Assembly (NCBI RefSeq): GCF_011758645.1
Contig: NZ_JAAMOZ010000001.1
Coordinates: 2,790,001-2,854,000 of the forward strand
Source: Brooklawnia cerclae
GTDB taxonomy: Bacteria > Actinomycetota > Actinomycetes > Propionibacteriales > Propionibacteriaceae
Direction: 5' to 3'
Length of the DNA: 64,000 bases
Below are positions 4,806 to 33,894 of the stretch, one piece after another. Under the pieces are notes generated by a model. The model did no database searches, was not told where the DNA came from, and saw nothing but the letters and a program-made list of their open reading frames with translations. How positions within the stretch are numbered: position 1 is the stretch's first letter; every line of letters begins with the position of its first letter. A program made the translations under genes and the position numbers.

Positions 4806-5771
4806 TCAGTATGCCGCGAGCTGTCGTTCGATGTCGCCGATCTTCAACCGGAGTTCGCGTTGAAGGCGCTTGTCCTGCTCGGACGATGCCACGACGCTCG
4901 CGTTCACCGCACGAGTGCTCGCGTCCACGCCTGCGACGGCAGCAGTGATCCCCCGCTCCGCCTGTTTGAGCGACGAGGCCAGCGCGCCCACCGAGGCGGA
5001 GATCGCGCCGCCCATCCGGCTGACCGCTTGTTCAAGGTTGGCGAACCCCTCGATGACGGCTGCGGTCGTGCGCCGCTGTTCCCAGATCTGGGCGAACACG
5101 GGGTGGCATTGCGCGTCATAGACGACCGGTGCGAGACGCCGGATCTGCGATGTGGCCGCCCGCGCCGCCTCGCTCGTGTCGATCTCCACCGGGAAGGGCG
5201 CCAGCGCCTCCGTCCCGCCGAACGAACGGTACCGACCGATCGCGTGGACGTAGTCCCCGGATAGGACACCCAGCCTGGACAGGGTGCGGTTGTACTCGCC
5301 CAGCGCCGCGTAGGCGCCCTCGATGCTCGCCCAGAACGGCGAATAGGCACCGTTGCGGTAGTGCTGTTGTGCATCGACCCCGCCCTGACGCGCCTGTGCC
5401 AGCCAACCGGGCAGGTTGCCGAACGCCTCGACCGCCTCGGCCGAGACGCGCTCCGCGCGGGCCTTCTCGACAGCCATCTCATTGAGCCGGACCCGCTCCG
5501 CCTCCGCCTCCTGTAGGGCGGCGGCCGCCCGAGCAGCCCGATTCGTCTTGTTGGCCCCGCTCAGTTCCGCGATGAGGCCGATCACCACCGCAGCGGCCAC
5601 GATCACGACCATCACGCGCAGATAGCCGAACCAGAACTGGCCCGGCGTGTCCAGGATGAGGATGTAGACACCCAGCCATCCCCCGAGGACAGGCAGCGCA
5701 CCCCACCAGGCCGCCTGAAACCCCCACGCAAGTGCATCGAACACAGCCTTGACAACCTGTTTCCCCCCCAT
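4806..5771 (-). CDS. Membrane protein with C-terminal coiled-coil region, unknown function
   Basis: Protein of 321 aa that I do not recognise as a named family. Two hydrophobic segments near the N-terminus (about residues 14-40 and 47-70, WWGALPVLGGWLGVYILILD and YLRVMVVIVAAAVVIGLIAE) are followed by an Ala/Glu-rich helix (ALQEAEAERVRLNEMAVEKA) and a mostly helical domain ending in basic heptad-like stretches (DKRLQRELRLKIGDIERQLA). ATG 5771 was chosen because membrane segments start soon after; the longer frame to 6242 runs antisense-like through ogt. It may be a cytoplasm-facing scaffold. No link to its neighbours is evident. Confidence 0.7.
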   Translation of the reverse strand: MGGKQVVKAVFDALAWGFQAAWWGALPVLGGWLGVYILILDTPGQFWFGYLRVMVVIVAAAVVIGLIAELSGANKTNRAARAAAALQEAEAERVRLNEMAVEKARAERVSAEAVEAFGNLPGWLAQARQGGVDAQQHYRNGAYSPFWASIEGAYAALGEYNRTLSRLGVLSGDYVHAIGRYRSFGGTEALAPFPVEIDTSEAARAATSQIRRLAPVVYDAQCHPVFAQIWEQRRTTAAVIEGFANLEQAVSRMGGAISASVGALASSLKQAERGITAAVAGVDASTRAVNASVVASSEQDKRLQRELRLKIGDIERQLAAY

Positions 5772-5853
5772 GGGAGGAGTCTGCCACAGCCGGATCACAG
5801 AGCCTGCCGCCGATCTCACCCAGGGAGAAAGCTGCGGGCCGAGACGAATGCGG

Positions 5854-6381
5854 TCATGCCTCCGGTTGGATGGCTCGCTCGCGTCGTAGCAGGCTCCGCT
5901 TGACGGACACTCCCCACGCGAAGCCCGCCAGCCCCCCGTTCGCGGCGACCACCCGATGGCAGGGGACGAAGAGCCCGCAGGGATTCCGGGCGCACGCCCC
6001 GGCGACGGCACGCGCACCGTTCGGCCTTCCCAGCGCCGCGGCCAGCTCGCCGTAGCCGACGACGGTTCCCGGCGCGATGTCGCGCAGGCGCTCCCAGACC
6101 TGGATCTGGAGGGGCGTCCCGCGCAGGACGACGGGCACGGACGCCGCCGTCGCCAGATCACCGCCGTAGTAGGCACGCACCGCCGCGGCCGCTCGCGTCG
6201 CATCGGTGTCGGATGCGCCGTGGGAAGCATCAGGATCGACAAGGTCGTCCAGATGCGCGCGCCGGGCGAGTGCCGCCGCGTCGTCGTCCCAGCCCGATGC
6301 GAGCACCGAGCCCTGGGCGTCCTCGATCACCGTGAACGGCCCGTCGGGGGTGTCGACGGTCTGGATCCGCACTGTTGTCAT
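5854..6381 (-). CDS. ogt: Methylated-DNA--[protein]-cysteine S-methyltransferase
   Basis: Protein of 175 aa that repairs O6-alkylguanine by suicidal transfer of the alkyl group to a cysteine. The acceptor is Cys141 in FVPCHRVV, and the DNA-binding HTH is [20 protein letters not shown], with the nucleotide-flipping Arg in RAV. The ATG at 6381 overlaps the stop of the upstream Ada-AlkA gene by 4 bp, so the two are co-transcribed as an alkylation-repair operon. The 20 extra residues offered by the longer frame are antisense-like and were dropped. Confidence 0.93.
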
Positions 6382-7871
6382 GGGTGTTGTCCCTTCTGTG
6401 TCGAGGCACGCCACAGGTGCATCGTGAGGTAGCTGCGCCACGGGGCGACGGGTGCCACCTGCCGGGCGATCGCGAGTTCGCTGTCACCGAGTCCGGTGCG
6501 CCGGGCCCCGGCCCGCATCGCGGCGTCGCTGGTCAGCAGGACGTCGGGATGCCCGAGGAGCCGCATCGCGAGGTAGTCCACGGTCCATGGGCCGACTCCC
6601 TTGACGGGGCGCAGGGTCTCGGCGAGGCTCTCGCGGGTGTCGTCGACGCCGAGTTCCAGGTCTCCGGCGGCCATCGCCTCGCACACCCGGACGACCGTGT
6701 CGATACGCGCCCGCGGGCCGGACAGGAAGTCCGCGCCGTCTTCCGCGATCGCCGAGGGGGCCGGGAACAGGCGGGTGACCTCGGGTCGGCCGTCGCCGCC
6801 GGTTCGGGCGATGCGGGACGGCAGGGGCTCGCCGAGGCCGTCGACGAGGCGCTGCAGATGGGTGCGTGCGGCGGCGACCGAGATCTGCTGACCGATCAGC
6901 GCCCGGACGATGGCCTCCTCCGGCCCGGCCGCCCCCGGAATCCGTATCCCGGGCGCGGCGGCGACCATCGGCGCCAGCCGCGGGTCGGCGGCAAGGGCGG
7001 CGTCCGCCCCTGCCGGGTCGGCGTCGAGATCCAGCAATCTGCGTACCCTGCTGACGACCACCGGGAGGTCGGCCAGATCCTCGACGCGCATCGACGCCTC
7101 CAACCGCGTCCCGGTGTCGACGATCTCGACGACGGCGGCCCGCCGGCCGATGCGCAGGCTCCGCCGATAGGAGTTCCCGGTCACCGACTCGAGGCCGTCC
7201 ACTGCGCGCGTCCCGAACCATCCGAACAGGCCCCTCACGTCGATCGGCTCCCGATACGGCAGGACGACGCGCACATCGCCGCCGAGCCCTTCGCCGTGCC
7301 CGGCCCGTCCCCCCGCTCGCGACCGCTCGCGGAGCTGGGTCGGGGACATCCCGAAGACCTCGGCGACAGTCTCGTTGAACTGCCGGATGCTGGCGAACCC
7401 AGCGGCGAACGCGAGATCGCTCATCCGCATCGTCGTCGAGACGATCAACTGCCGCGCCGTGTGCGCGCGGTGAGCCCGCGCCAGCGCGAGCGGCCCGGCG
7501 CCGAGCTCAGCAACCAGGACGCGTCCCAGCTGGCGCTCCGAGTAGCCCAGACGCCGGGCCAGTCCACTGACGCCCTCCCGCTCGACGACGCCGTCGGCGA
7601 TCAGCCGCATGGCTCGCGCAGCGACATCCTCGCGCAGGTTCCACGCGGGACTGCCCGGCATCGCCTCGGGCAGGCATCTCCGGCACGCCCGGTACCCCGC
7701 GAGATGGGCGGCCGCGCTCGTCGGGAAGAACTCGACGTTGGTGGGCTTCGGCGTCCGCGCGGGGCAGCTGGGACGACAGTAGATGCCGGTCGTGCGGACG
7801 GCCATGACGAACTGCCCGTCGAACCTGCGGTCACGGGAGGTGACCGCCCGGTAGCGCTCGTCGAAGTCCAT
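6378..7871 (-). CDS. alkA: Ada-AlkA fusion: AraC-type regulator / DNA-3-methyladenine glycosylase
   Basis: Protein of 497 aa with three modules. Residues 1-80 form an Ada zinc/methyl-acceptor domain with Cys32, 36, 63 and 66 ([17 protein letters not shown]), exactly the spacing of E. coli Ada Cys38/42/69/72. Residues ~85-190 are an AraC HTH. The rest is an AlkA glycosylase, with the helix-hairpin-helix [20 protein letters not shown] followed by the catalytic-Asp region SDAAM. It should both sense methylphosphotriesters and excise alkylated bases. Start at ATG 7871, because the Ada domain begins at once. Co-transcribed with ogt through a 4-bp overlap. Confidence 0.93.
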
Positions 7872-23925: not shown

Positions 23926-24420
23926 CTAGCCGACGATCGCAACCCTCACCGTGCGCTGACGCGCGCGAACCTGGTCGAAGTCGGCGAAATAGATCCTGCC
24001 GAACTCGCCCAGCTCAAGCTGGTGGCCCACCAGCGGGATGACCACAGAACGCCCGAGGAGCACCGACCGCAGGTGCGCGTCGGTGTTGAGGCTCCAGACG
24101 GGCTCCTCCGCACGCTCGGCCTGAGCGATGCGGATGTGCTCCGGCCCCGGGTGCAAGTAGTCCCCCTCGGTCGTGCAGGTGGGGAAGATCTGCGAGAGCC
24201 CGTTCACCATGTCCTGCAGGACGAACTGGGTGCCCCAGTAGTTGACGTCGTCCGACTGCTCCTGGATGAGCACACTGCACGTCGTGTGCTGCGAATACAC
24301 CGTCACCAAGCCGTCGGCCATCTCACTGGCCTTCACCGCCTGAACGACCCTGTCGGTGACGTCGTCGAAGGTCACCCGGCGGTCGGACTGGATCGTGAAA
24401 TGCTCGTGCACTGTCGTCAT
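23926..24420 (-). CDS. YjbQ/UPF0047 family protein, paralogue 1
   Basis: Protein of 164 aa. It carries the family landmarks SQHTTCSVLIQE and LNTDAHLRSVLLGRS, with the GRIYFADFD end of the fold. E. coli YjbQ has weak thiamine-phosphate synthase activity in vitro, but its true role is not settled. Here the usual HTSA motif is HTTC, placing a Cys next to the conserved His-Thr pair. It is the last gene of the operon that starts at the ABC ATPase, 30 bp after paralogue 2. The tandem pair in a sugar locus suggests a metabolic job. Confidence 0.9.
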   Translation of the reverse strand: MTTVHEHFTIQSDRRVTFDDVTDRVVQAVKASEMADGLVTVYSQHTTCSVLIQEQSDDVNYWGTQFVLQDMVNGLSQIFPTCTTEGDYLHPGPEHIRIAQAERAEEPVWSLNTDAHLRSVLLGRSVVIPLVGHQLELGEFGRIYFADFDQVRARQRTVRVAIVG

Positions 24421-24450
24421 TGTTCCCCTGTTCCTCTGAATATCAGCTTG

Positions 24451-24948
24451 TCAATCGCCCATCACGGTGATGGAGACCTCCCGCTCGCGTGGGCGGGTGT
24501 GATCGAAGTCGATGAAGTAGATGTGCCCGAACGAGCCGAGGTCGAGCGTCCCATCGACGACCGGCAGCGTCTCGCTCCTGCCGATGAAGACCGATCGCAG
24601 ATGGGCGTCGGTGTTGAGGGTCTCGGGCTTCGACTCACCGTGCTCGCGCGAGAACTCCGTCAGCTCGGGCCCCGGATGCCGGTACTGTCCCTCGGCGCGC
24701 GTTGTCGGGATGAGTTGCTCGAAGACGTCCCACAGATCCTGCTGAAGATACTCGAGCCCGTTGTAGGTGAGATCGATCGAGTCTTCCTGCGTCATGACAG
24801 AGCAGGTCGTGTGGTGGGTCGAGACGACACACACCCCGTCGTTGATGCCGGACTCCGCGATGAACGCGCGTACCTCGTCGGTGATCCTGTGGAACGAGGG
24901 CCGCCCACCGACGGAGGTGATCTTCACGGTAGAGCGCCTAGTCGCCAT
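24451..24948 (-). CDS. YjbQ/UPF0047 family protein, paralogue 2
   Basis: Protein of 165 aa, homologous to the neighbour at 23926: THHTTCSVMTQEDS, LNTDAHLRSVFIGRSE and GHIYFIDFDH. Both have the HTTC form of the motif. ATG 24948 is favoured over ATG 24957 because AGAAAGGA sits at the right distance from the former and directly abuts the latter. Its start overlaps the end of the TIM-barrel gene by 11 bp, so the two are translationally coupled. The two paralogues could form one heteromeric enzyme or act on related substrates. Confidence 0.9.
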   Translation of the reverse strand: MATRRSTVKITSVGGRPSFHRITDEVRAFIAESGINDGVCVVSTHHTTCSVMTQEDSIDLTYNGLEYLQQDLWDVFEQLIPTTRAEGQYRHPGPELTEFSREHGESKPETLNTDAHLRSVFIGRSETLPVVDGTLDLGSFGHIYFIDFDHTRPREREVSITVMGD

Positions 24949-25675
24949 GGCACGCATTCCTTTCTGACGCGGGAACCGTTCCCGCGATCCTTTGGTCTCT
25001 CGCATGCGCGAGCGCGCCGATCATGTCCCGAGCCGCGCGCACGGGGTCGGGAGCAGCCACGATGCCGGAGGCGACGCCGACGCCGTCGGCGCCGGAGGCG
25101 ATCAGCGCGTGGACGTCCTCGGGCGAGGTGATACCCGCGGCTTGTTCGACGAGCGTTTGCGGGCTCACCGCATGTACGGCCCGCGTCGAATCCGCAGCGA
25201 AGCCGAGGGGGACGCCGCCCGAGGTCCCGATGCGGTCGCTGGGCTCGGGGTTGATGACATCAGGACGGAACCGGGCCAACGCCTCAGCTTCCTCGATGCT
25301 GTCGGCACACACGAACGAGAGCAGGCCGAGTTCCCGGGCCCGCTCGATCGATCGACGGAGCATGCCGATGGACATGGGGTCCTCGATGTGATTCATGACC
25401 ACTCCGGCCGCCCCCACCGCCCTCACCGACTCGGGCAGGATCTTGGACAGCCCGCGTCCGGGATCGATCAGGTCCATGTGCGGGGCGAGGACGATCAGCC
25501 GACTCGTGTGTTCACAGACCCGCCGGAGTTCGACGAGCGGCGCGATGAACAGCACGTCCACGTCGTAGCGGCCCGCCTCCTCGTCCGCGACACGCGCCAG
25601 TTCCAGCACGGCATCGCCATACAGGTAGTTCTTCACCCCGATCTCGAAGAAGGGCGCCCGCACATGCCGGGTCAT
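24938..25675 (-). CDS. Triosephosphate isomerase-like TIM-barrel isomerase
   Basis: Protein of 245 aa. It resembles archaeal-type TIMs, with equivalents of the catalytic residues: Lys15 (EIGVKNYLYGD), His96 (GVVMNHIEDP), Glu144 (INPEPSDRIGTSGG), and the phosphate-binding GITSPEDV and GVGVASG loops. Members of this group in sugar loci, such as EryH of erythritol catabolism, isomerise four-carbon sugar phosphates rather than triose phosphates, which is the likely role here. It overlaps the amidohydrolase gene by 4 bp. A housekeeping TIM would normally sit with gap and pgk, and here it does not. Confidence 0.85.
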   Translation of the reverse strand: MTRHVRAPFFEIGVKNYLYGDAVLELARVADEEAGRYDVDVLFIAPLVELRRVCEHTSRLIVLAPHMDLIDPGRGLSKILPESVRAVGAAGVVMNHIEDPMSIGMLRRSIERARELGLLSFVCADSIEEAEALARFRPDVINPEPSDRIGTSGGVPLGFAADSTRAVHAVSPQTLVEQAAGITSPEDVHALIASGADGVGVASGIVAAPDPVRAARDMIGALAHARDQRIAGTVPASERNACHGD

Positions 25676-26733
25676 GGGCGTGCCGTCCAGGTCGCGGCGA
25701 CCGGCCCGTACGTTCGGGCGGCGTTGTCCCAGAAGACGGCGGTCACCTCGTCGTGGCCGAGCCCGGCCGACTCCGCCGCGTCCAGGAACGCGGCAACCTC
25801 TTCATAGAGCATCATCGTCAGGCTTCCCGCATCGTCGGTCTCCCGCATCGAGGGATCGTCGCTCACGTCGCCGTACAGCCCGCGGGGCACGACGTTCACG
25901 TAGCGGCCGTCCTCGACCACTCGGTGACCCCGCAGCCCGAAGATCGGGAGGTCCGACCCGAACATCACCCGGGATGGGTCGACGGCGGCGAGCAGCAGGC
26001 GCATGACGTCGGAGTTCGTGTTCGCGGTGATGTCGAAGAGCAGGTGCTCGCTCCTTTCGAGGGTGGCCATGGCGTCGCCGACGTCCGCCAATGCGTAGGC
26101 GCGACCGATGTGGGTGACGATGACCTGCGCACCGGGATAGTCCCGGTCGATCTGCATGAGCTGGGCAAGGTTGACCGGATCACCGAGCCTGCCCGGTCGC
26201 GGGACGTGCAGCATGACGACCCAACCGCGCCGATCCGCCACCTCGAGTTGATGCCGGGGCAGGAAGTCGAAGATCTCGATGTCGTCCTTCGGGATCGAAG
26301 GGTCCGCGAAGTTCAGGTAGGGCTTGCATCCTGCGAATCCACCGGCATCGATCCGCCGCTCGAACTCCGCGGCGTCCCAGGTGGGCCGCGTGACAGCCAA
26401 CGCCGGAAGCCTGTGTGCATGGGCGTCTGCGCTCACATGGTCGTTGTTCGCGTCCACGTCGGTACTGGTGTCGATGTTGCCGAAGATGGCGGGGGTGACC
26501 GACTGCGCCGGGAACATACGCCGATAGGTCTCCAGAAGGTCGGCCAAGGGGTTGGTCGCTGCGATCCGCGCGGCCCACGCCGCCGAACGACGGGGTGGAT
26601 ACGAGCCTTCCGGCAGGACGTCGTCGGCATACCACACATGTGCGTGGCCGTCCATCATCCGCTCAGGGAGCGCATCGCGCAGGTATCGGTCGTAGAACCG
26701 TATGTCGGTTTCGGTGATCTCGGGCACGGCCAT
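25672..26733 (-). CDS. Amidohydrolase_2-family metal-dependent hydrolase
   Basis: Protein of 353 aa. Metal-binding candidates are His30 and His32 (DGHAHVW), His176 (VMLHVPR), His208 (VTHIGR) and Asp261 (FGSDLP), with a possible bridging Lys137 (GCKPYL). The family includes lactonases, decarboxylases and hydrolases of aromatic or sugar acids. In this locus a lactonase- or aldolase-like step on a sugar derivative is plausible, but nothing fixes the reaction. It overlaps the TIM-like gene by 4 bp and lies 3 bp after the kinase gene, so it is in the operon. Confidence 0.85.
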   Translation of the reverse strand: MAVPEITETDIRFYDRYLRDALPERMMDGHAHVWYADDVLPEGSYPPRRSAAWAARIAATNPLADLLETYRRMFPAQSVTPAIFGNIDTSTDVDANNDHVSADAHAHRLPALAVTRPTWDAAEFERRIDAGGFAGCKPYLNFADPSIPKDDIEIFDFLPRHQLEVADRRGWVVMLHVPRPGRLGDPVNLAQLMQIDRDYPGAQVIVTHIGRAYALADVGDAMATLERSEHLLFDITANTNSDVMRLLLAAVDPSRVMFGSDLPIFGLRGHRVVEDGRYVNVVPRGLYGDVSDDPSMRETDDAGSLTMMLYEEVAAFLDAAESAGLGHDEVTAVFWDNAARTYGPVAATWTARP

Positions 26734-26736
26734 CGA

Positions 26737-28233
26737 TCAGTTCCTCTCCGGGGTGGACGCCTGACGCTGGGCAGCGTCCAGGCTCGAGACGAAAGCGGCG
26801 CGCCGGGGCACCGCGTCCTGGTAGAAAGCCGAGTCGGGGCCTGGTTCCAGCCGGGTCGAGCCCGGCATCATGCGCAGACAGCATTCCCCGATACGCGCGG
26901 GATCGGCTGCTGCGGCGAGCATCGCCGCACCTCGGCAGGCCGCGTCGGGCTCTCGCAGCACGTCGATCGGCTCGCCCAGTACGTCGGCGATGATCCGCGG
27001 CCACACCGGGCTCTGGGTGGCTCCGCCCATCACGCGCACGGCGCTGACCTGCGGATTGACGCCGCGGTGCAGAGCGACGAGCGTCGCCGCCTCGTAACAG
27101 ATGCCCTCGAGTGTGGCGCGGACGAAGTGCCTGCGCTCGTGGGTGAGATCCATACCCACGAAGCCTCCGCGCGACCGCTCGTCCCATACAGGGACGGTCG
27201 CCCCGAAGTGTGGCACGAGCATGAGGCCGTCGGAACCCGCGGGGGTGGCGAGCACGTCCTGGGTGACGGCGTCGAACGACAGCGGTTCGCCGCTCGTCCC
27301 CCACAGGCCGCGAACCCACTCCAGGGACGAGCCGCCGTTGAGCAGCGAGCAGAATGCGCCCCACAGCCCGGGAAGCACGTGGTCGCTGAAGGACAGGTTC
27401 TCTCTCGGGTCGGGCAGCGGCACCGCCGAGGCACCGAGGACGACCCAGGCCGTGCCGGTCGACAGGACGAGGGTCGACGCGTCGAGTGCCCCGGCGCCGA
27501 GCGCGGCACAGTACTGGTCATGGCCCCCGGCGACCACCACGACGTCCCGCGGCAATCCGAGATCGGCTGCCGCGCGGGGCGTGAGGGTGCCGATGGCCTC
27601 GCCAGGGTCCACGAGCCCCGGTAACACGGACTCGTCGATGCCGATGGCCTCGAGGATGTCGGGGTCGTAACGGCGTTCGGCGGCATTCGTCAGTTGCGTG
27701 ATGCCCGCGCTGTTGCGGTCGAGGCACGGACGCCCGGTGAGCCTCATCGCGAGGAAATCATGCGTGGACAAGAACAGGCCGGTCGCCGCGAACAGATCGT
27801 GGTCGTGGCTGCGCATGTCGGCGATCTGCGCCGCGTTGTATCGGGGGCCGAGCTTCCAGCCCGTGCGCTCGTAGAAGCCGTGGGCACCGAAGCGCGCGTC
27901 CAGCGCCTGTGCGGCAGCGGCGGCACGCGAGTCGAGCCACGATCGCGCCGGGGCGAGCGGATTCCCGTCGCGATCGGCGTTGACCAACGTGCCACCCTGA
28001 ACTGACATCGCCAGTGCACCGATTCGGGCGGGGTCGATGCCGTCGGTCACCGCGCGCACCGACCGTACGATCGCCGTCCACCAGTCCTCCGCGTCCTGCT
28101 CCACCTCGACCGGCGAGCGCCGGTCGATGGCGTAGTGCCAGGACGCCGACGCCAGTGCTGTGCCGTCGTCGGCCATGAGGACTGTCTTGGTGCCCGATGT
28201 TCCCACGTCGAGACCGATGACCAGATCTGCCAT
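26737..28233 (-). CDS. FGGY-family carbohydrate kinase
   Basis: Protein of 498 aa. The N-terminal phosphate-1 motif is IGLDVGTSGTKTVLM. The middle carries the catalytic-Asp region VVAGGHDQYCAALG and the STGTAWVV segment. The C-terminal adenosine motif is MGGATQSPVWPRII, and the FGGY signature 2 region is FVGMDLTHERRHFVRATLEG. Family members phosphorylate pentoses, hexoses, tetritols or glycerol; the substrate cannot be read from sequence. ATG 28233 follows AGGAAGGAATC. The hairpin 28245-28279 separates it from the binding-protein gene. Confidence 0.92.
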   Translation of the reverse strand: MADLVIGLDVGTSGTKTVLMADDGTALASASWHYAIDRRSPVEVEQDAEDWWTAIVRSVRAVTDGIDPARIGALAMSVQGGTLVNADRDGNPLAPARSWLDSRAAAAAQALDARFGAHGFYERTGWKLGPRYNAAQIADMRSHDHDLFAATGLFLSTHDFLAMRLTGRPCLDRNSAGITQLTNAAERRYDPDILEAIGIDESVLPGLVDPGEAIGTLTPRAAADLGLPRDVVVVAGGHDQYCAALGAGALDASTLVLSTGTAWVVLGASAVPLPDPRENLSFSDHVLPGLWGAFCSLLNGGSSLEWVRGLWGTSGEPLSFDAVTQDVLATPAGSDGLMLVPHFGATVPVWDERSRGGFVGMDLTHERRHFVRATLEGICYEAATLVALHRGVNPQVSAVRVMGGATQSPVWPRIIADVLGEPIDVLREPDAACRGAAMLAAAADPARIGECCLRMMPGSTRLEPGPDSAFYQDAVPRRAAFVSSLDAAQRQASTPERN

Positions 28234-28244
28234 GATTCCTTCCT

Positions 28245-28279
28245 GTCGGTGCCCGGCACTAGGCCTGCCGGGCACCGAC
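28245..28279 (-). terminator. Hairpin between binding-protein and kinase genes
   Basis: A 14-bp perfect stem, GTCGGTGCCCGGCA with TGCCGGGCACCGAC, around a 7-nt loop, lies in the 66-bp gap. No T-run. Such stems after sugar-binding protein genes often stabilise the upstream mRNA or attenuate transcription, so the binding protein is made in excess. The kinase ribosome binding site begins right after it. Confidence 0.6.
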
Positions 28280-28299
28280 CCATGGACTGTGCGAACAGC

Positions 28300-29328
28300 T
28301 CAGTAGTCGTACTCGTCGATGTTGTCGGCCGTGAAGTCGAGGAACTCGTTGAACAGGAGCACATCGCCCGAGTAGGTCAACTGGTCGTACCCGTCGTAAC
28401 CGGAGACCGTCCCCTCGGAGTAGGTCTTGCCGTCCAGAAGGTCCTTGGTGACGTAGACCGCGAGCTTCGCGTACTTCTCCAGATCCCAGAAGTTGATGAT
28501 CTGAGCGGAGTCGTCGGCGATGTAGGGCTTCATGACGTTCGGCGTCGAGATGCCGGTGACATACACCTGGCCCTGCTTACCGGCCTGCTGAACCGCGCGT
28601 GCCGCGCCGACGGCCGCCTCGGAACTGTTCGAGATGATGCCCTTGAGATCGGGGTAGGCGGTGAGCAGGTTCTGGGCGATCGTGTACGCCTTGGCGGGAT
28701 CGACGTCCGCGCCCTCCACACTGACCAGATCGAGGCCGGGGTAGGTCTCGGCGCTGTATGCCTTGATCGCGTCGATCCGCTCGTTGAGGAGGTTCGCGCT
28801 GAGCGAGCCGGTGATCACCGCGTACTGGCCCGATTCACCCATCTGGCTGACCAGGGAGTCGACCATATGCGCGCCGAAGTCTTCCATGCTCCCGATGCCG
28901 ATGTAGTTCTCGCGGCCGTCGGGGTCGGTGTCGACGTCCCACGTGTAGACGTGGATGCCGGCGTCCATCGCCTGCTGGAGCACGGGCACCACGGAGGTGC
29001 CGTCGACGGCCGAGATGACGATCGCGTCCACGCCGCGAGTGATCATGTTCTGGACGATCTCCGACTGCTTGGCAGCATCGGCGGTATCAGGGCCCTGATA
29101 GATCCAGTTGATACCGCCGATCTCCTCGGCGGCTTCCTGCATCGCGGTGTTGGCGGTCTCGAAATACGGGGCGCCGACCACCATCGGGATGAAGGCGACG
29201 TCGTAGGTGGAATCGTCGGACGACCCCGCGCTCGCCCCGGTGCCCCCCGGTGTTCCCGTCGTACAGCCGGTGACCGCGAGTGCTGCGACGGTGGCAGCGA
29301 CCGCTGCCACTCTCAGGCGTTTGATCAT
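28300..29328 (-). CDS. Ribose-type sugar-binding lipoprotein of ABC importer
   Basis: Protein of 342 aa. A lipoprotein signal (MIKRLRVAAVAATVAALAVT, then lipobox GC at Cys22) is followed by a type I periplasmic-binding fold (Peripla_BP_4): VDAIVISAVDGTSVVPVLQQ, GIHVYTWDVDTD, QYAVITGSLSANLLNERIDA. This is the RbsB/LsrB-like class that binds sugars and AI-2-type molecules. It is the fourth gene of the importer operon, with a 4-bp overlap to the second permease. Anchored on the outer face of the membrane. The ligand is not predictable from sequence. Confidence 0.92.
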   Translation of the reverse strand: MIKRLRVAAVAATVAALAVTGCTTGTPGGTGASAGSSDDSTYDVAFIPMVVGAPYFETANTAMQEAAEEIGGINWIYQGPDTADAAKQSEIVQNMITRGVDAIVISAVDGTSVVPVLQQAMDAGIHVYTWDVDTDPDGRENYIGIGSMEDFGAHMVDSLVSQMGESGQYAVITGSLSANLLNERIDAIKAYSAETYPGLDLVSVEGADVDPAKAYTIAQNLLTAYPDLKGIISNSSEAAVGAARAVQQAGKQGQVYVTGISTPNVMKPYIADDSAQIINFWDLEKYAKLAVYVTKDLLDGKTYSEGTVSGYDGYDQLTYSGDVLLFNEFLDFTADNIDEYDY

Positions 29329-30326
29329 GCTTGTCTCTCCTTGCTGGTTGTGATTGCGCCGAAGACGGGCGCAGTTTTCCTTCGGGAAGTTCGGACGCGC
29401 TTGGCGATCTCGCGACCGGTGAGGACGATGATGAGGATCGATCCGATCACCACCGTCTGGATGAAGACCGAGACGTTGGCCAGTCCCAGGCCGTTCTGGA
29501 TCACGGTGAACACCGCGACACCGAGAATCGCGCCGACGACGTTGCCCCGCCCACCCGCGATGCTGATGCCCCCGAAGACCACCGCCGAGATGGCCGAGAG
29601 CACGTAGGCGTCGCCCAGGTCGACCCGCGCGGTGGCCGTGCGGCTCGACAGCACCACCGCCACGACGTAGGCGAGGAGCGCGGCGAACACGTACGTCGCC
29701 ATCAGGGTGCGAGCTGTGCGTATGCCGGCGAAGCGGGCCGCGACCGGGTTCGCCCCGATGAGGTAGACGTGTCGTCCCCAGCGGGTGGACGTCAGGAGGT
29801 AGGCCGTGATGATGACGATCGCGATCATCAGGAAAACCTGCGCTGGAACCGGGCCGACGAAGCTCTGACCGAACACGAAATAGGACGTGGGGAAGCTGGA
29901 GACCGCACGTCCGTCACTCATCACCGTGGCTGCGCCGCCGTAGGCGAGGCTGGTGCCCAGTGTGGCCACGAGGGACGGCACCCCGAGCACCCCCACGAGA
30001 GCCCCGTTGATCAGGCCCGCGGCGACGGCGACGAGCAGCCCGGCGAGCATGGCTGCGGGCAGCGGCCACCCGTGTGCGACCAGCACGGCCATGGTGACGG
30101 CGACGAGCCCGACCTGTGCGCCGATCGACAGGTCGATGCCGCCCGTGATGATGACCACGGACATACCGCAGGTGATGATCGCGAGTTCCACCATCTGCCG
30201 GGCGAGCTGGAACAGATTGCCCGCGGTGAGGAAGCTGGGACTCAGTGCGGACACCACGATGAACAGGAGCGCGAAGAGGCCCACCAGCACCCACTCCGTC
30301 GGGTACCTCGAGAAAAGCCGCTTCAT
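29325..30326 (-). CDS. ABC sugar permease 2 (RbsC-like)
   Basis: Protein of 333 aa with about ten hydrophobic helices typical of BPD_transp_2. The EAA-like coupling region lies around AGIRTARTLMATYVFAALLAY, and GGISIAGGRGNVVGAILGVA is the conserved glycine-rich segment of this permease class. It is paralogous to the permease at 30323, suggesting a heterodimeric channel. 4-bp overlaps on both sides show one translation unit. Confidence 0.92.
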   Translation of the reverse strand: MKRLFSRYPTEWVLVGLFALLFIVVSALSPSFLTAGNLFQLARQMVELAIITCGMSVVIITGGIDLSIGAQVGLVAVTMAVLVAHGWPLPAAMLAGLLVAVAAGLINGALVGVLGVPSLVATLGTSLAYGGAATVMSDGRAVSSFPTSYFVFGQSFVGPVPAQVFLMIAIVIITAYLLTSTRWGRHVYLIGANPVAARFAGIRTARTLMATYVFAALLAYVVAVVLSSRTATARVDLGDAYVLSAISAVVFGGISIAGGRGNVVGAILGVAVFTVIQNGLGLANVSVFIQTVVIGSILIIVLTGREIAKRVRTSRRKTAPVFGAITTSKERQA

Positions 30327-31330
30327 CGTTCCTCCTTGGTCGTAGCGGACGAGTTCAATCGCGCCATGAGAAGGGCACGGTCCTGGATCACCGCGGCGGT
30401 CACGGCGGCGACGACGATCAGGCCGCTCACGAGGTCCTGCCAGTACACGGGCACTCCGCTGAGTACCAGGCCGTTCTGGATCACACCCAGGAGCAGCACG
30501 CCGAGCAGAGTGCCGCCGATGTGGATGCGCCCGCCGAAGACGCTCGCACCTCCGAGGATGGCCGCCGCGATCGCCGTCATCTCGAAGCCGACGCCCGCGC
30601 CGGGCTGCGCGGAGCCCATCTGGACGAGATAGAGCACCCCGGCCAGCCCCGAGAACGCACCCATGATCACGAAGACGAGGAAATCGACGCGGGACACGTT
30701 GACACCGAATCGCAATGCCGCCTCGCGGTTGCCGCCGAGAGCGACGACGTCACGTCCGCTCGTGGTCCGGTGCATGTACACGGCCAGCAGAACCGTTGCC
30801 ACGGCCACCACGATGAGTACCCCTGGGATGCCGACAGGCCCGTCCACCTGGGACGACGTCAACCATGCGGGCACGCCGCTCGTCCAGGCACCGTTGGTCG
30901 TCGAATACAGGACGCCCCGCAGGATGCTCGATGTACCGAGTGTGACGATGATCGCGGGAAGACGTATCAACGCGACGAACAACCCGTTCAGAGCTCCGAG
31001 AACGCAACCGATCACGACGCCCAGCAGGAGCATGGTGCCCGTGTTCACGATGGCGGACTGCGTCTGAGCTGCCGTGACGATGTCGCCGACGACAACGGCG
31101 GTGACCGCGAGTTGCGCCCCGACGGACACGTCGATGTGGGCCGGGACCAACACGATCGTCATGCCCAGCGCGAGCACGGCCATGACCGCGTTGCTGGTGA
31201 GCACGTTGCGGATGTTGCTCACGGTCATGAACTGCGGCGAGATGACCGCGACGACGCAGGATATGACGACGATGCTTGCGGCGATGACGATTTCGCGTCG
31301 TCGGACGATCGCAGCGAGCGTGGCATTCAC
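30323..31330 (-). CDS. ABC sugar permease 1 (RbsC-like)
   Basis: Protein of 335 aa, BPD_transp_2 class. Conserved elements are LALGMTIVLVPAHIDVSVGA in the N-terminal part and AAILGGASVFGGRIHIGGTL near the C-terminus. It matches permease 2 in organisation but differs in sequence, so both are needed for the transporter. Its start overlaps the ATPase stop by 4 bp. With the ATPase and binding lipoprotein it forms an import system like those for ribose, xylose or autoinducer-2. Confidence 0.92.
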   Translation of the reverse strand: MNATLAAIVRRREIVIAASIVVISCVVAVISPQFMTVSNIRNVLTSNAVMAVLALGMTIVLVPAHIDVSVGAQLAVTAVVVGDIVTAAQTQSAIVNTGTMLLLGVVIGCVLGALNGLFVALIRLPAIIVTLGTSSILRGVLYSTTNGAWTSGVPAWLTSSQVDGPVGIPGVLIVVAVATVLLAVYMHRTTSGRDVVALGGNREAALRFGVNVSRVDFLVFVIMGAFSGLAGVLYLVQMGSAQPGAGVGFEMTAIAAAILGGASVFGGRIHIGGTLLGVLLLGVIQNGLVLSGVPVYWQDLVSGLIVVAAVTAAVIQDRALLMARLNSSATTKEER

Positions 31331-32841
31331 TGATGGTCTCCTTGCAGCTCGAGCGTCAGGATCGATTCCTGCGTGCTTTCACCGGGCGTTGTCTCGCCCA
31401 CGATTCGTCCACCACGCATGACGAGAATGCGGTTGGCCAGTGCAAGCACCTCGGACAGCTCCGACGAGATGACCAGCACACCCGTCCCGGAGGCCGCGAG
31501 GCCTTGTAAGAGCCGGTGGATCTCGCGTTTGGCGCCGATGTCGACCCCGCTGGTCGGTTCGTCGACGATCAGCAGGCGAGGTTCGGCGGCCATCCAGCGG
31601 GCGAGCAGTACCTTCTGCTGGTTGCCGCCGCTGAGGGTGCTCGCGTCGGCGCTCGGAAGAGCGGGGCGTATGTCCAGGTCGCGGGTGTAGCGGGCGACGA
31701 GCGCGTCCTCCTTGCGTGGCACGATGCGCCGGAACCGGTCGACCAGCCTGTCGAGCGCCGCGACGGTGGCGTTCGTCCGGATCGAGTGGCCGGCGAAGAT
31801 CCCCTGGAGCCTGCGATCCTCCGGCAGGTAACCGATGCCATGGGCGAGCGCATCGGCCGGCGACCCGATGACGACCTCCTTGCCGTCGACGCGCAGACGA
31901 CCCGAGCGGGCCGGTGTCATGCCGAAGATGGTGTGCGCGAGTTCGGTGCGCCCGGACCCGACGAGGCCGGTGATCGCGACGATCTCGTTGCGCCGGACGC
32001 TGAAGGACACCCCCTGCGTCGTGCCACCGACCAGTAGGTCGTCGACGCCCAGGATCTCCTCACCCGCCTCGCCCTCGACCCGGGACGCGGCGTACTCGGT
32101 GCGCCGACCCACCATCGCTGCTATCAGATCGTCCTGCGTGAAGTCGGGGATGCCGCCCGTCGTGACCACCTGTCCGTCGCGCAAGACCATCACCCGGTCA
32201 CAGATGCGAAACACCTCGTCAAGCTTGTGGCTGATGAAGACGATGCCGACCTGCGCCGCCCGGAGTTCGTCGACGATCCGGTAGAGGATCTCGGTCTCCA
32301 CCGCGGACAGGGCACTTGTGGGCTCGTCCATGACGATCACCCGCGCTTCGGTCGCGACCGCTCTGGCGATGGCGAGCATCTGTTGCTGCCCGAAGCTCAG
32401 CGTCTCGACGGGGGCGTCGACATCGAAGTCGAGGCCGAGCCTTTCGAGAACCTCCACGGCAGCCGAACGCCAGGCCGACGGCCGGTAGACCCCGTGGCCC
32501 TCCCGGGCACGGGTGAATCCGAGGTTCTCGGCAACCGTGAGATTCGGGAACAGGCTCAAGTCCTGGTAGATGACCGAGACGCCCCAGTGCAGCGTCCGTA
32601 CCGGGTCGACGGCGTCGTGCGTCTGGCCGAAATATGTGAGTTGCGCTCCGGGATCGGGGTGCTCGGCGCCCGACAGGATCTTGATGAGCGTCGACTTCCC
32701 CGCGCCGTTCTCACCGACGAGCGCGAGCACCTCCCCAGCACGAATCTCGATCGACGCATCACGAAGCACCGTGATGCCCGAGTAGGTCTTCGACACGTGG
32801 TCAAGGGCGATGAGGGTCTCGGACCCTGTGCGCATCGGCAT
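31327..32841 (-). CDS. Sugar ABC importer ATPase (RbsA-like, two nucleotide-binding domains)
   Basis: Protein of 504 aa with two ABC modules. The N-domain has Walker A GENGAGKSTLIK, Q-loop IYQDLSLF, signature LSFGQQQMLAIARA, and Walker B VIVMDEPTSAL. The C-domain has the degenerate Walker A GLVGSGRTELAH, signature LSGGNQQKVLLARW and Walker B LLIVDEPTSGVDIG. This is the RbsA/XylG architecture. It is the first gene of the eight-plus-gene catabolic operon; its promoter lies in the 267-bp gap to the DeoR gene. Confidence 0.95.
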   Translation of the reverse strand: MPMRTGSETLIALDHVSKTYSGITVLRDASIEIRAGEVLALVGENGAGKSTLIKILSGAEHPDPGAQLTYFGQTHDAVDPVRTLHWGVSVIYQDLSLFPNLTVAENLGFTRAREGHGVYRPSAWRSAAVEVLERLGLDFDVDAPVETLSFGQQQMLAIARAVATEARVIVMDEPTSALSAVETEILYRIVDELRAAQVGIVFISHKLDEVFRICDRVMVLRDGQVVTTGGIPDFTQDDLIAAMVGRRTEYAASRVEGEAGEEILGVDDLLVGGTTQGVSFSVRRNEIVAITGLVGSGRTELAHTIFGMTPARSGRLRVDGKEVVIGSPADALAHGIGYLPEDRRLQGIFAGHSIRTNATVAALDRLVDRFRRIVPRKEDALVARYTRDLDIRPALPSADASTLSGGNQQKVLLARWMAAEPRLLIVDEPTSGVDIGAKREIHRLLQGLAASGTGVLVISSELSEVLALANRILVMRGGRIVGETTPGESTQESILTLELQGDHQ

Positions 32842-32943
32842 TCTCCCCCACTCTCACAAGGGCCGACCCGCCAGCAACCACTGACGGGGGACGGCCACCC
32901 GGTCCGTCATGCAACACGAGGAGTATTGCACCTTTCTGACGTA

Positions 32944-32973
32944 TTGATGACGCTACGATGCAACTAACATCAA
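32944..32973. promoter_or_regulatory. Inverted repeat in the divergent promoter region, candidate DeoR operator
   Basis: TTGATG (32944-32949) pairs with CATCAA (32968-32973) across 18 bp. The surrounding ~80 bp is AT-rich for this genome and contains a GTTAC/GTTAAC cluster (32976-32994). It lies ~100 bp upstream of the ABC ATPase and ~135 bp upstream of the DeoR gene. Inferred from symmetry and position. Confidence 0.45.
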
Positions 32974-33108
32974 AACGTTACAAGTAGTTAACACTCTTCA
33001 ACCGGCTCCGGGACGTCGGCATGCAGCTCCGGCCTCGTCCGGAAATACTGAACCGCAAGCGGCTTCGCGATATCGTGGCCGTAAAGTCCAAGAAAGGCGA
33101 CCAGCTAC

Positions 33109-33894
33109 ATGAAGGCACGCGACCGCTGGAACCACATCCTTGGCCTGATATCACGTGAGGGCTACGCCGAGATCACCTCCATCGCGGAGGATCTCGGCGT
33201 CTCCGTGGCCACAGTGCGGCGCGATGTCGACAGGCTGGCGGAACAGCAGTTGCTCACCCGCACGCGCGGCGGCGCCGTGTCGAACTCCACGGCCTACGAC
33301 CTTCCCCTGCGCTACAACGCGGAACGCAACGTCGCCCAGAAGGCCGCCATCGCGGATCTGGCGATCAGCCGCGTCGCCGAAGGTGCGGTCGTGGCGATCA
33401 GCGGGGGGACGACAACGACGGAGGTCGCGCGCGCACTGGCGCTCAGGTCGGAACGGCACACCGGCTCGCGGTGGCCGGCGATCACCCTCGTCACCAACGC
33501 CATCAACATCGCCAACGAGTTGGCTGTACGGCCGAACATCCGTCTGGTCGTGTTGGGAGGGGTTGTCCGCCCGCAGTCGTACGAGCTCACCGGTCACCTC
33601 GCCGAACTCGCGCTCGCGGAGATCGCCATCGACGTCGCGGTCATCGGCGGCAACGCGGTGGACGTCAGGTACGGCTTGAGCTGCCACAACGAAGGAGAAG
33701 CAGCCATCGCCCGCGCCATCCAGGCCCGTGCGGCACAGACCCTCGTCGTGGCCGACTCCTCCAAGCTCGGCGCGCACGCATTCGCCCGCATCTGCCCTGC
33801 CGAGGCGATCACGACCCTGATCACGGACAAGGCGGCACCTGATGGCACGGTGGCCGAACTCCGGGAGGCAGGCGTCGAGGTGCTGTTGGCCTGA
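33109..33894 (+). CDS. DeoR/GlpR-family repressor of the sugar locus
   Basis: Protein of 261 aa. The N-terminal DeoR HTH is RWNHILGLISREGYAEITSI, AEDLGVSVATVRRDVDRLAE (about residues 6-50), and the C-terminal DeoR-type sugar-phosphate sensor domain has AISGGTTTTEVARAL, VTNAINIANEL and GVVRPQSYELTGHLAE. It is divergent from the ABC ATPase. The family normally senses a phosphorylated intermediate of the pathway it controls, here presumably the product of the FGGY kinase. Confidence 0.93.
   Translation: MKARDRWNHILGLISREGYAEITSIAEDLGVSVATVRRDVDRLAEQQLLTRTRGGAVSNSTAYDLPLRYNAERNVAQKAAIADLAISRVAEGAVVAISGGTTTTEVARALALRSERHTGSRWPAITLVTNAINIANELAVRPNIRLVVLGGVVRPQSYELTGHLAELALAEIAIDVAVIGGNAVDVRYGLSCHNEGEAAIARAIQARAAQTLVVADSSKLGAHAFARICPAEAITTLITDKAAPDGTVAELREAGVEVLLA

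Follow-up and report, generated by a model that had tools for sequence, protein, structure and literature searches.

Pairing of an archaeal-type triosephosphate-isomerase-like gene with YjbQ genes in a putative rare-sugar operon of Brooklawnia cerclae

Why should an operon that resembles a sugar importer with its kinase carry two genes of the UPF0047/YjbQ family, a family for which, to our knowledge, no settled function is known? The question is raised by a 64,000-nucleotide stretch of the Brooklawnia cerclae genome (contig NZ_JAAMOZ010000001.1, positions 2,790,001 to 2,854,000), referred to here in its whole length as the window. It contains a triosephosphate-isomerase-like protein (TIM), two YjbQ proteins (YjbQ1 and YjbQ2), a protein of the Amidohydro_2 family (AH), an FGGY kinase, an ABC importer and a divergent DeoR regulator. 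Loci of the TIM-YjbQ kind are widespread, and gene conservation gives good support to the view that the YjbQ genes are genuine parts of a pathway. From the sequences we put at roughly 50% the probability that the locus imports a small rare sugar and that the product of the FGGY kinase reaches central metabolism via isomerase-type steps of TIM and the two YjbQ proteins.

The survey of comparable loci was queried with TIM and not with AH, because AH has no match among the plasmids, occurs in only one of the 96 near relatives, which is the window itself, and was found in only ten of 396 genomes of its own phylum, the window included and the rest distant. Six TIM-like proteins were aligned and scanned against genome contigs, which gave 394 confirmed relatives; only the best 80 were kept, so that the set, mostly from Clostridia and other Bacillota, leans to window-like proteins. 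Although fetched by TIM similarity alone, 63 of these 80 loci have a complete YjbQ open reading frame (ORF) on the same strand within 200 bp of TIM. A further six have a complete YjbQ at up to 1.5 kb, and in three (L039, L050, L094) a YjbQ gene truncated by the contig end lies directly behind TIM. Genome samples drawn evenly from two phyla contained TIM-like genes (E <= 1e-25) in 9 of 299 genomes from the phylum of genome G498 and in 15 of 396 from the window's own phylum, the window genome included. YjbQ lies within about 1.5 kb of the TIM-like gene in 25 of the 26 loci and in all 24 carrier genomes, two of which (the window genome and G498) were carriers known beforehand. TIM also matched 15 plasmid records; seven of them were examined (five annotated, one haloarchaeal and one without annotation), and YjbQ is the gene next to TIM in all five annotated ones, from Enterococcus, Lacticaseibacillus and Shinella, while the haloarchaeal record has no YjbQ in the stretch shown.

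UPF0047 is found in both bacteria and archaea, with hits in 10 of 14 control genomes. The objection that the YjbQ genes are chance neighbours could draw on its abundance, with 301 of the 396 own-phylum genomes carrying it, and on the window's own family, where YjbQ is missing from 7 of 14 TIM-like loci. However, genomes of 1-4 Mb hold one to a few copies, and at this density chance would put a YjbQ gene within 2 kb in about 1 in 100 cases or fewer. The observed figures are 63 of 80 loci in the survey and all 24 carriers in the genome samples. The survey refutes this explanation, which we regard as practically impossible; YjbQ is conserved with the locus type.

Partner genes were counted within 6 kb in the 80 loci, with labels given by similarity to one reference each, several of which have weak Pfam support. 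The partners were YjbQ (71 loci), SIS-domain isomerase (46), FGGY kinase (40), DeoR (26), the family c5 (20), class II aldolase (19), RbsA (16), Rpe (15), NagA-like (14), ceramidase-like (13), Gat-type phosphotransferase system (PTS; 11), FucI-like (10), transaldolase/FSA-like (9), AH, DRL and Gut-type PTS (4 each), AraA-like and SDR (3 each) and creatininase (2). In this survey of the kind proposed in the original prediction, which was made from the window's sequence, the TIM and YjbQ pair recurs joined to several different uptake systems; AH, named there among the unusual parts, is a minority part, and the key pairing is TIM with YjbQ.

The genes of the window operon, as confirmed with Pfam and NCBIfam models, are as follows.

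23926 to 24420, minus strand: YjbQ2, long-form UPF0047/YjbQ paralogue of 164 amino acids (PF01894 93 bits; TIGR00149 83.4 bits; clade support 0.989)
About 24451 to 24948 (start codon assumed), minus strand: YjbQ1, long-form UPF0047/YjbQ paralogue of 165 amino acids (PF01894 105.5 bits; TIGR00149 85.2 bits; clade support 0.97)
24938 to 25675, minus strand: TIM, archaeal-type triosephosphate-isomerase-like protein of 245 amino acids (PRK04302 145.5 bits, cut-off 132; 1hg3 E 1.1e-31)
25672 to 26733, minus strand: AH, Amidohydro_2 protein of 353 amino acids (PF04909 81.6 bits, cut-off 26.4)
About 26737 to 28233 (ATG start assumed; the ORF opens at 28275), minus strand: FGGY carbohydrate kinase of 498 amino acids (PF00370/PF02782)
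28300 to 29328, minus strand: sugar-binding lipoprotein, RhaS/LsrB-like (Peripla_BP_4; lipobox AVTGC in the sequence)
29325 to 30326, minus strand: ABC permease, RbsC-type 2 (PF02653, BPD_transp_2)
30323 to 31330, minus strand: ABC permease, RbsC-type 1 (PF02653, BPD_transp_2)
31327 to 32841, minus strand: RbsA-type double ATPase (PF00005, two stretches)
33109 to 33894, plus strand: divergent DeoR-family regulator (PF00455/PF08220; relatives at 62-64% in L030 and L038)

These ten genes are the set originally predicted at this place, with the refinement that the permease part of the RbsABC-type importer consists of two genes and not one. The 4-bp overlaps said to join most of them are exact at four of the eight junctions (RbsA/permease 1, permease 1/permease 2, permease 2/lipoprotein and AH/TIM); with start codons assumed, the remainder are an overlap of about 11 bp between TIM and YjbQ1 and gaps of 66 bp (lipoprotein/kinase), 3 bp (kinase/AH) and 30 bp (YjbQ1/YjbQ2). 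The predicted absence of a dehydrogenase and of an RpiB-type isomerase held: a Pfam scan found neither among the ten operon genes, and the four RpiB-family (PF02502) matches of the genome all lie outside the operon, the nearest about 0.68 Mb off on the same contig.

Both YjbQ copies belong to the family, with scores above the cut-offs of 27 bits for PF01894 and 67.75 bits for TIGR00149, and share its predicted fold. Unlike the canonical YjbQ of 130-140 amino acids, they are about 30 residues longer and TIM-linked. TIGR00149 is named secondary thiamine-phosphate synthase, an activity that YjbQ is said to have in the title of one paper; no thiamine gene is found among the ten. The long form is typical of the YjbQ set from TIM loci, in which 160-179 amino acids were matched in 111 of 111 hits (L024 included, and the own genome, L030 and L103 counted twice), compared with 110-139 in 30 short YjbQ proteins, which are the top PF01894 scorers of the own phylum and not a random sample. 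In the tree, with 139 rows left after four repeats of the own genome were dropped, long and short forms are split with a support of 1.0. YjbQ1 and YjbQ2 fall into two clades (supports listed above), both of which hold members from the same seven loci, namely the window, L027, L028, L029, L030, L033 and L038, spanning actinobacteria, a spirochaete and Clostridia. Since two paralogue clades have been retained together over such a wide taxonomic distance, YjbQ1 and YjbQ2 likely do different things. YjbQ is also frequent on enterococcal plasmids, with 152 Enterococcus plasmid records matching YjbQ1; on the E. faecium plasmid pAA620-1 (L024, 5935-11773), a Gat-like PTS, YjbQ, an Rpe-type epimerase and a 6-phospho-3-hexuloisomerase lie in a row, the latter two over their model cut-offs.

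What the second YjbQ might do is suggested by the gene that is missing beside it. Among one-YjbQ loci that lack aldolase, 43 of 50 have a SIS-domain isomerase, whose nearest named model is GutQ/KpsF (below cut-off); none of the seven two-YjbQ loci has one (Fisher p 1.3e-5, to be taken as a guide only, given the relatedness of the genomes and the fact that these loci also supplied the SIS profile). The comparison covered the 80 loci, two Shinella loci and the window, with eight loci without YjbQ and 19 aldolase-type loci excluded. On the simplest reading, the second YjbQ and the SIS isomerase can fill the same slot, in which case YjbQ would be an enzyme of the sugar-phosphate isomerase type. 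As two-YjbQ loci lack the SIS isomerase that is common in one-YjbQ loci, we infer that YjbQ may carry out a sugar-phosphate isomerase- or epimerase-type step after the kinase, and, given the recurrence of the TIM-YjbQ pairing in very different bacteria, YjbQ probably works as an enzyme in the breakdown of rare sugars.

The partner enzyme, too, is altered, at one site that varies with the type of locus. The original prediction pointed to a kinase and a TIM-like isomerase as parts shared with EryA/EryH systems; by the PRK04302 model, in which it lies over the cut-off, the protein is of the archaeal type. The residues K15, H96 and E144, which we take to be catalytic, are kept in every covering row of an 88-row column check. 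The Asn of the N-x-K motif, presumably a substrate-site residue, is replaced by Gly13 in the window. At this position all 21 aldolase-type loci have Asn, whereas the 43 kinase-type loci have Gly in 42 cases and Ser in one; L081, with a weak aldolase match plus a kinase, was assigned by hand to the kinase type. The other 22 loci have Gly in 21 cases and Asn in the archaeal L025, and the short row L003 does not cover the column. Because the site Asn is replaced by Gly or Ser while the catalytic Lys, His and Glu are kept, the kinase-type TIM-like enzyme probably has a substrate other than triose phosphates. Further differences from archaeal-type triosephosphate isomerase are the position in a kinase operon and the presence of two classical TIM genes in the same genome, neither of which has a YjbQ gene nearby, whereas the three YjbQ genes of the genome adjoin its two archaeal-type TIM genes.

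In the proposed route, the Rbs-type system would import a small rare sugar, AH would form the ketose unless it is supplied ready and the step is not needed, and the FGGY kinase would phosphorylate this ketose. TIM, YjbQ1 and YjbQ2 would then run an isomerase-type chain from the ketose phosphate to central metabolism. AH is in the Amidohydrolase_2 family and has no NCBIfam match at E <= 0.001. Its pattern H30xH32, H176, H208 and D261 is invariant in 16 of 16 rows, and these residues are presumably metal ligands; AH is probably a metal-dependent enzyme of the first step (a lactonase, hydrolase or isomerase). The predicted fold, with a predicted local distance difference test score (pLDDT) of 91.1, matched amidohydrolase-2 decarboxylases and lactonase-like proteins with template-modelling (TM) scores of about 0.5-0.7, and an assignment of function from the fold was dropped in view of these mixed matches. 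AH occurs in five of 12 carrier genomes examined, in one of them on a contig other than that of TIM.

For the sugar itself, a four-carbon sugar ending as erythrose 4-phosphate is our first bet, and it is a guess by analogy. The pdxB branch of E. coli starts from erythrose 4-phosphate. According to one study, an E. coli pdxB mutant is relieved of its pyridoxal-phosphate requirement by yjbQ overexpression, with an entry point suggested upstream of SerC and PdxJ and the function of YjbQ called unknown (PMC7954711). Tetrulose is converted to erythrose 4-phosphate via several isomerase-type steps, one of them by a TpiA homologue, as a second source states (PMC10733421). The bet rests on these two points, the use of a TpiA homologue and isomerases in tetrulose routes and the relief of the pdxB-branch block. 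The other candidate is a longer ketose with its carbonyl shifted along the chain, a six-carbon carbonyl walk. On a more far-reaching view, long-form YjbQ would be a new, fold-isolated class of sugar-phosphate isomerase, which together with TIM would shift the carbonyl stepwise along a ketose phosphate and thereby turn a ketose with its phosphate at one end into a pathway sugar with the phosphate at the opposite end. For the third step, some bacteria would use a second YjbQ and others a SIS-domain isomerase. This proposal is tentative, and we would expect it to be wrong considerably more often than right. TpiA-homologue and isomerase steps in tetrulose routes are, judging by its title, also reportedly the subject of a 2014 paper by Barbier.

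Several findings weigh against the proposed role of YjbQ in rare-sugar breakdown. The AlphaFold2 (AF2) model of YjbQ1 has a pLDDT of 95.3, and all 17 PDB matches of the fold search with E<0.001 belong to the YjbQ family, with nothing outside it; nine distinct solved PDB sequences match YjbQ. As the model matches YjbQ structures alone, the fold does not point to a function. The literature searched, with most subscription journals outside its coverage, shows no sugar activity for YjbQ, which could instead be a mutarotase or a binding or regulatory partner. The mutual exclusion of SIS isomerase and second YjbQ is confounded by ancestry and relies on a profile built from the SIS genes of the same loci; SIS is present in three of the 19 aldolase-type loci and absent from seven of the 50 one-YjbQ loci, in two one-YjbQ loci (L061, L087) the YjbQ gene is of the YjbQ2 clade and SIS is present as well, and an FGGY kinase is in reach in only 32 of the 50. 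Eight of the 80 TIM loci have no YjbQ, two of them (L052, L086) through contig ends lying 42 and 158 bp behind TIM, but the other six (L034, L058, L072, L075, L083, L102) despite at least 3 kb of downstream sequence. The 96 near relatives include 13 carriers of TIM-like genes, all from the own family and with 14 such loci in total, and YjbQ lies within about 1.5 kb in only seven of these; two of the seven negatives are contig ends, and no YjbQ was found in the 19 kb read in L191, L192 and L193. A profile-based check left these YjbQ calls unchanged. The N-x-K Asn is present in all seven own-family loci without YjbQ and also in six of the seven with it, Gly occurring only in the window. Finally, the presence of AH alongside an AraA-like gene in L027 makes a mutual replacement of the two less plausible. 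A replacement of AH by a sugar isomerase, considered in view of the AraA-like gene beside the kinase in L028 and L033, was rejected as a clean swap because L027 has both and L038 neither.

Three further explanations have to be weighed. YjbQ may be an accessory partner of TIM, such as a sugar-phosphate mutarotase, a stabiliser or a repair enzyme, with TIM and ordinary enzymes carrying the flux; TIM is the gene to which YjbQ is most closely joined, the two overlapping slightly in the window, L019 and L020, and the lack of fold relatives outside the family would fit as well. However, in the E. faecium locus L024 YjbQ stands beside Rpe and HxlB with no TIM-like gene in the stretch shown, and the retention of two paralogues and the absence of SIS isomerase from two-YjbQ loci also speak against a mere helper, so that we consider this unlikely. 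The locus could also be a variant of a tetritol or tetrulose pathway in which TIM stands in for EryH/LerI and YjbQ for RpiB or EryC. Erythritol and threitol catabolism (EryA/B/C/H/I; LerI/DerI) likewise combines a kinase with a TIM-homologous isomerase and serial isomerase-type steps. The tetrulose routes use such steps with one TpiA homologue (PMC10733421), and the Shinella locus consists of an SDR, an epimerase-like gene, TIM, YjbQ and an FGGY kinase. In contrast, neither the polyol or polyol-phosphate dehydrogenase nor the in-locus RpiB-type isomerase of the Ery, Ler and Der systems is among the ten genes, nor is an EryC or other AP_endonuc_2-type gene, while the window has the YjbQ pair, AH and an archaeal-type TIM that lacks the site Asn; a tetritol variant appears somewhat unlikely.

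Instead of sugar catabolism, the locus could serve autoinducer-2-type (Lsr-like) uptake with its kinase. Lsr systems, like the window, have two permeases and an FGGY kinase, and the closest PDB sequence of the binding protein is LsrB (5gta, 3.7e-45). By NCBIfam models, RhaS (203 bits) outscores LsrB (172 bits) for this protein, both being below cut-off, and the Lsr models are far from reached (LsrB 172 against 384; autoinducer-2 kinase, LsrK, 126 against 528). The kinase is closest among PDB sequences to xylulose kinase (2itm, 1.2e-52), but with 290 bits it stays below the cut-off of 380 in the XylB model TIGR01312. The Pfam matches of the ten genes leave none for the Lsr processing enzymes, and the window differs from Lsr uptake in its DeoR regulator, TIM and YjbQ genes, which makes this explanation highly unlikely. 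Rare-sugar import followed by TIM and YjbQ steps stays our preferred reading. The prediction that the YjbQ pair are genuine pathway enzymes stands in so far as they are conserved members of the locus; their catalysis and substrate are inferred.

The loci nearest in type to the window are Mycolicibacterium komossense L030/L113, L027, L029, L031 and L038. L030/L113 contains the kinase, AH, DeoR, TIM, both YjbQ genes and Rbs-type transport genes, which match those of the window at 46% (kinase), 55% (AH), 62% (DeoR), 56% (TIM), 68% (YjbQ1) and 75% (YjbQ2). In L027, a spirochaete metagenome-assembled genome, the AraA-like gene (5071-6420) is broken by a frame change, either real or an assembly error. 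In the Clostridia loci L041, L045, L049, L057, L065, L070 and L087, c5 and NagA-like amidohydrolases, mostly with ceramidase-like genes, are found near TIM-YjbQ; c5 has no Pfam match, and the label 'NagB-like', which has no Pfam backing, was not used as evidence. In the near relatives, L191 to L193 are archaeal-type TIM-like genes keeping the ordinary Asn. L191 adjoins a Gat-like PTS and a SorC-like gene, L192 has as its sole partner a weak RbsA-like match on the opposite strand, at a distance of about 0.8 kb, and L193 has a DeoR-like match about 5 kb away.

Two further features belong to the window and its genome.

32934 to 32983, no strand: imperfect inverted repeat in the DeoR/RbsA intergenic region, a possible operator (repeat search; weak, chance possible)
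1531 to 11165 of L112, about 158.5-168.2 kb of contig 3, strand not applicable: second TIM-YjbQ locus

The operator search found no 9-11-base words shared with short DeoR-flanking stretches of L030 and L038. The second locus, L112, holds the third YjbQ gene of the genome (TIGR00149 77 bits, cut-off 67.75) near the second archaeal-type TIM gene. It comprises a SorC-like regulator, a DRL-type oxidoreductase (PF21135), a sorbitol-type PTS (PF03608, PF03612, PF07663), an Enzyme-I-family protein (TIGR01417 386 bits, cut-off 341.7) and, between YjbQ and TIM, a class-II-aldolase-like gene that stays below its cut-off (TIGR00167 203.7 bits, cut-off 215.6). L190 in the relative G052 has a similar gene set, the Enzyme-I gene left aside. 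Loci with a galactitol/sorbitol-type PTS and class II aldolase (L019, L020, L103, L112) also have the TIM-YjbQ pair, whereas the window uses an ABC importer and an FGGY kinase and has no aldolase. The available part of a paper on DXR-II contains no match for sorbitol, aldolase or PTS (PMC3847144).

As had been predicted, no known locus of this gene set with an assigned substrate was found in the literature searched by title and abstract, most subscription journals being outside its coverage. The locus is probably a sugar-catabolism variant without an earlier assignment in that literature, and it makes the YjbQ family testable, since the conserved pairing of YjbQ with TIM and a kinase or PTS points to a class of substrate, names a partner enzyme and offers a genetic context. 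The catabolic route would be common to Clostridia, enterococci, vibrios, spirochaetes and actinobacteria. For a tetrose substrate, the locus would supply candidates for a transporter and kinase of the kind that one source calls unreported (PMC12780249). And if the carbonyl walk should prove true, the short canonical YjbQ of most bacteria would also be a sugar-phosphate enzyme.

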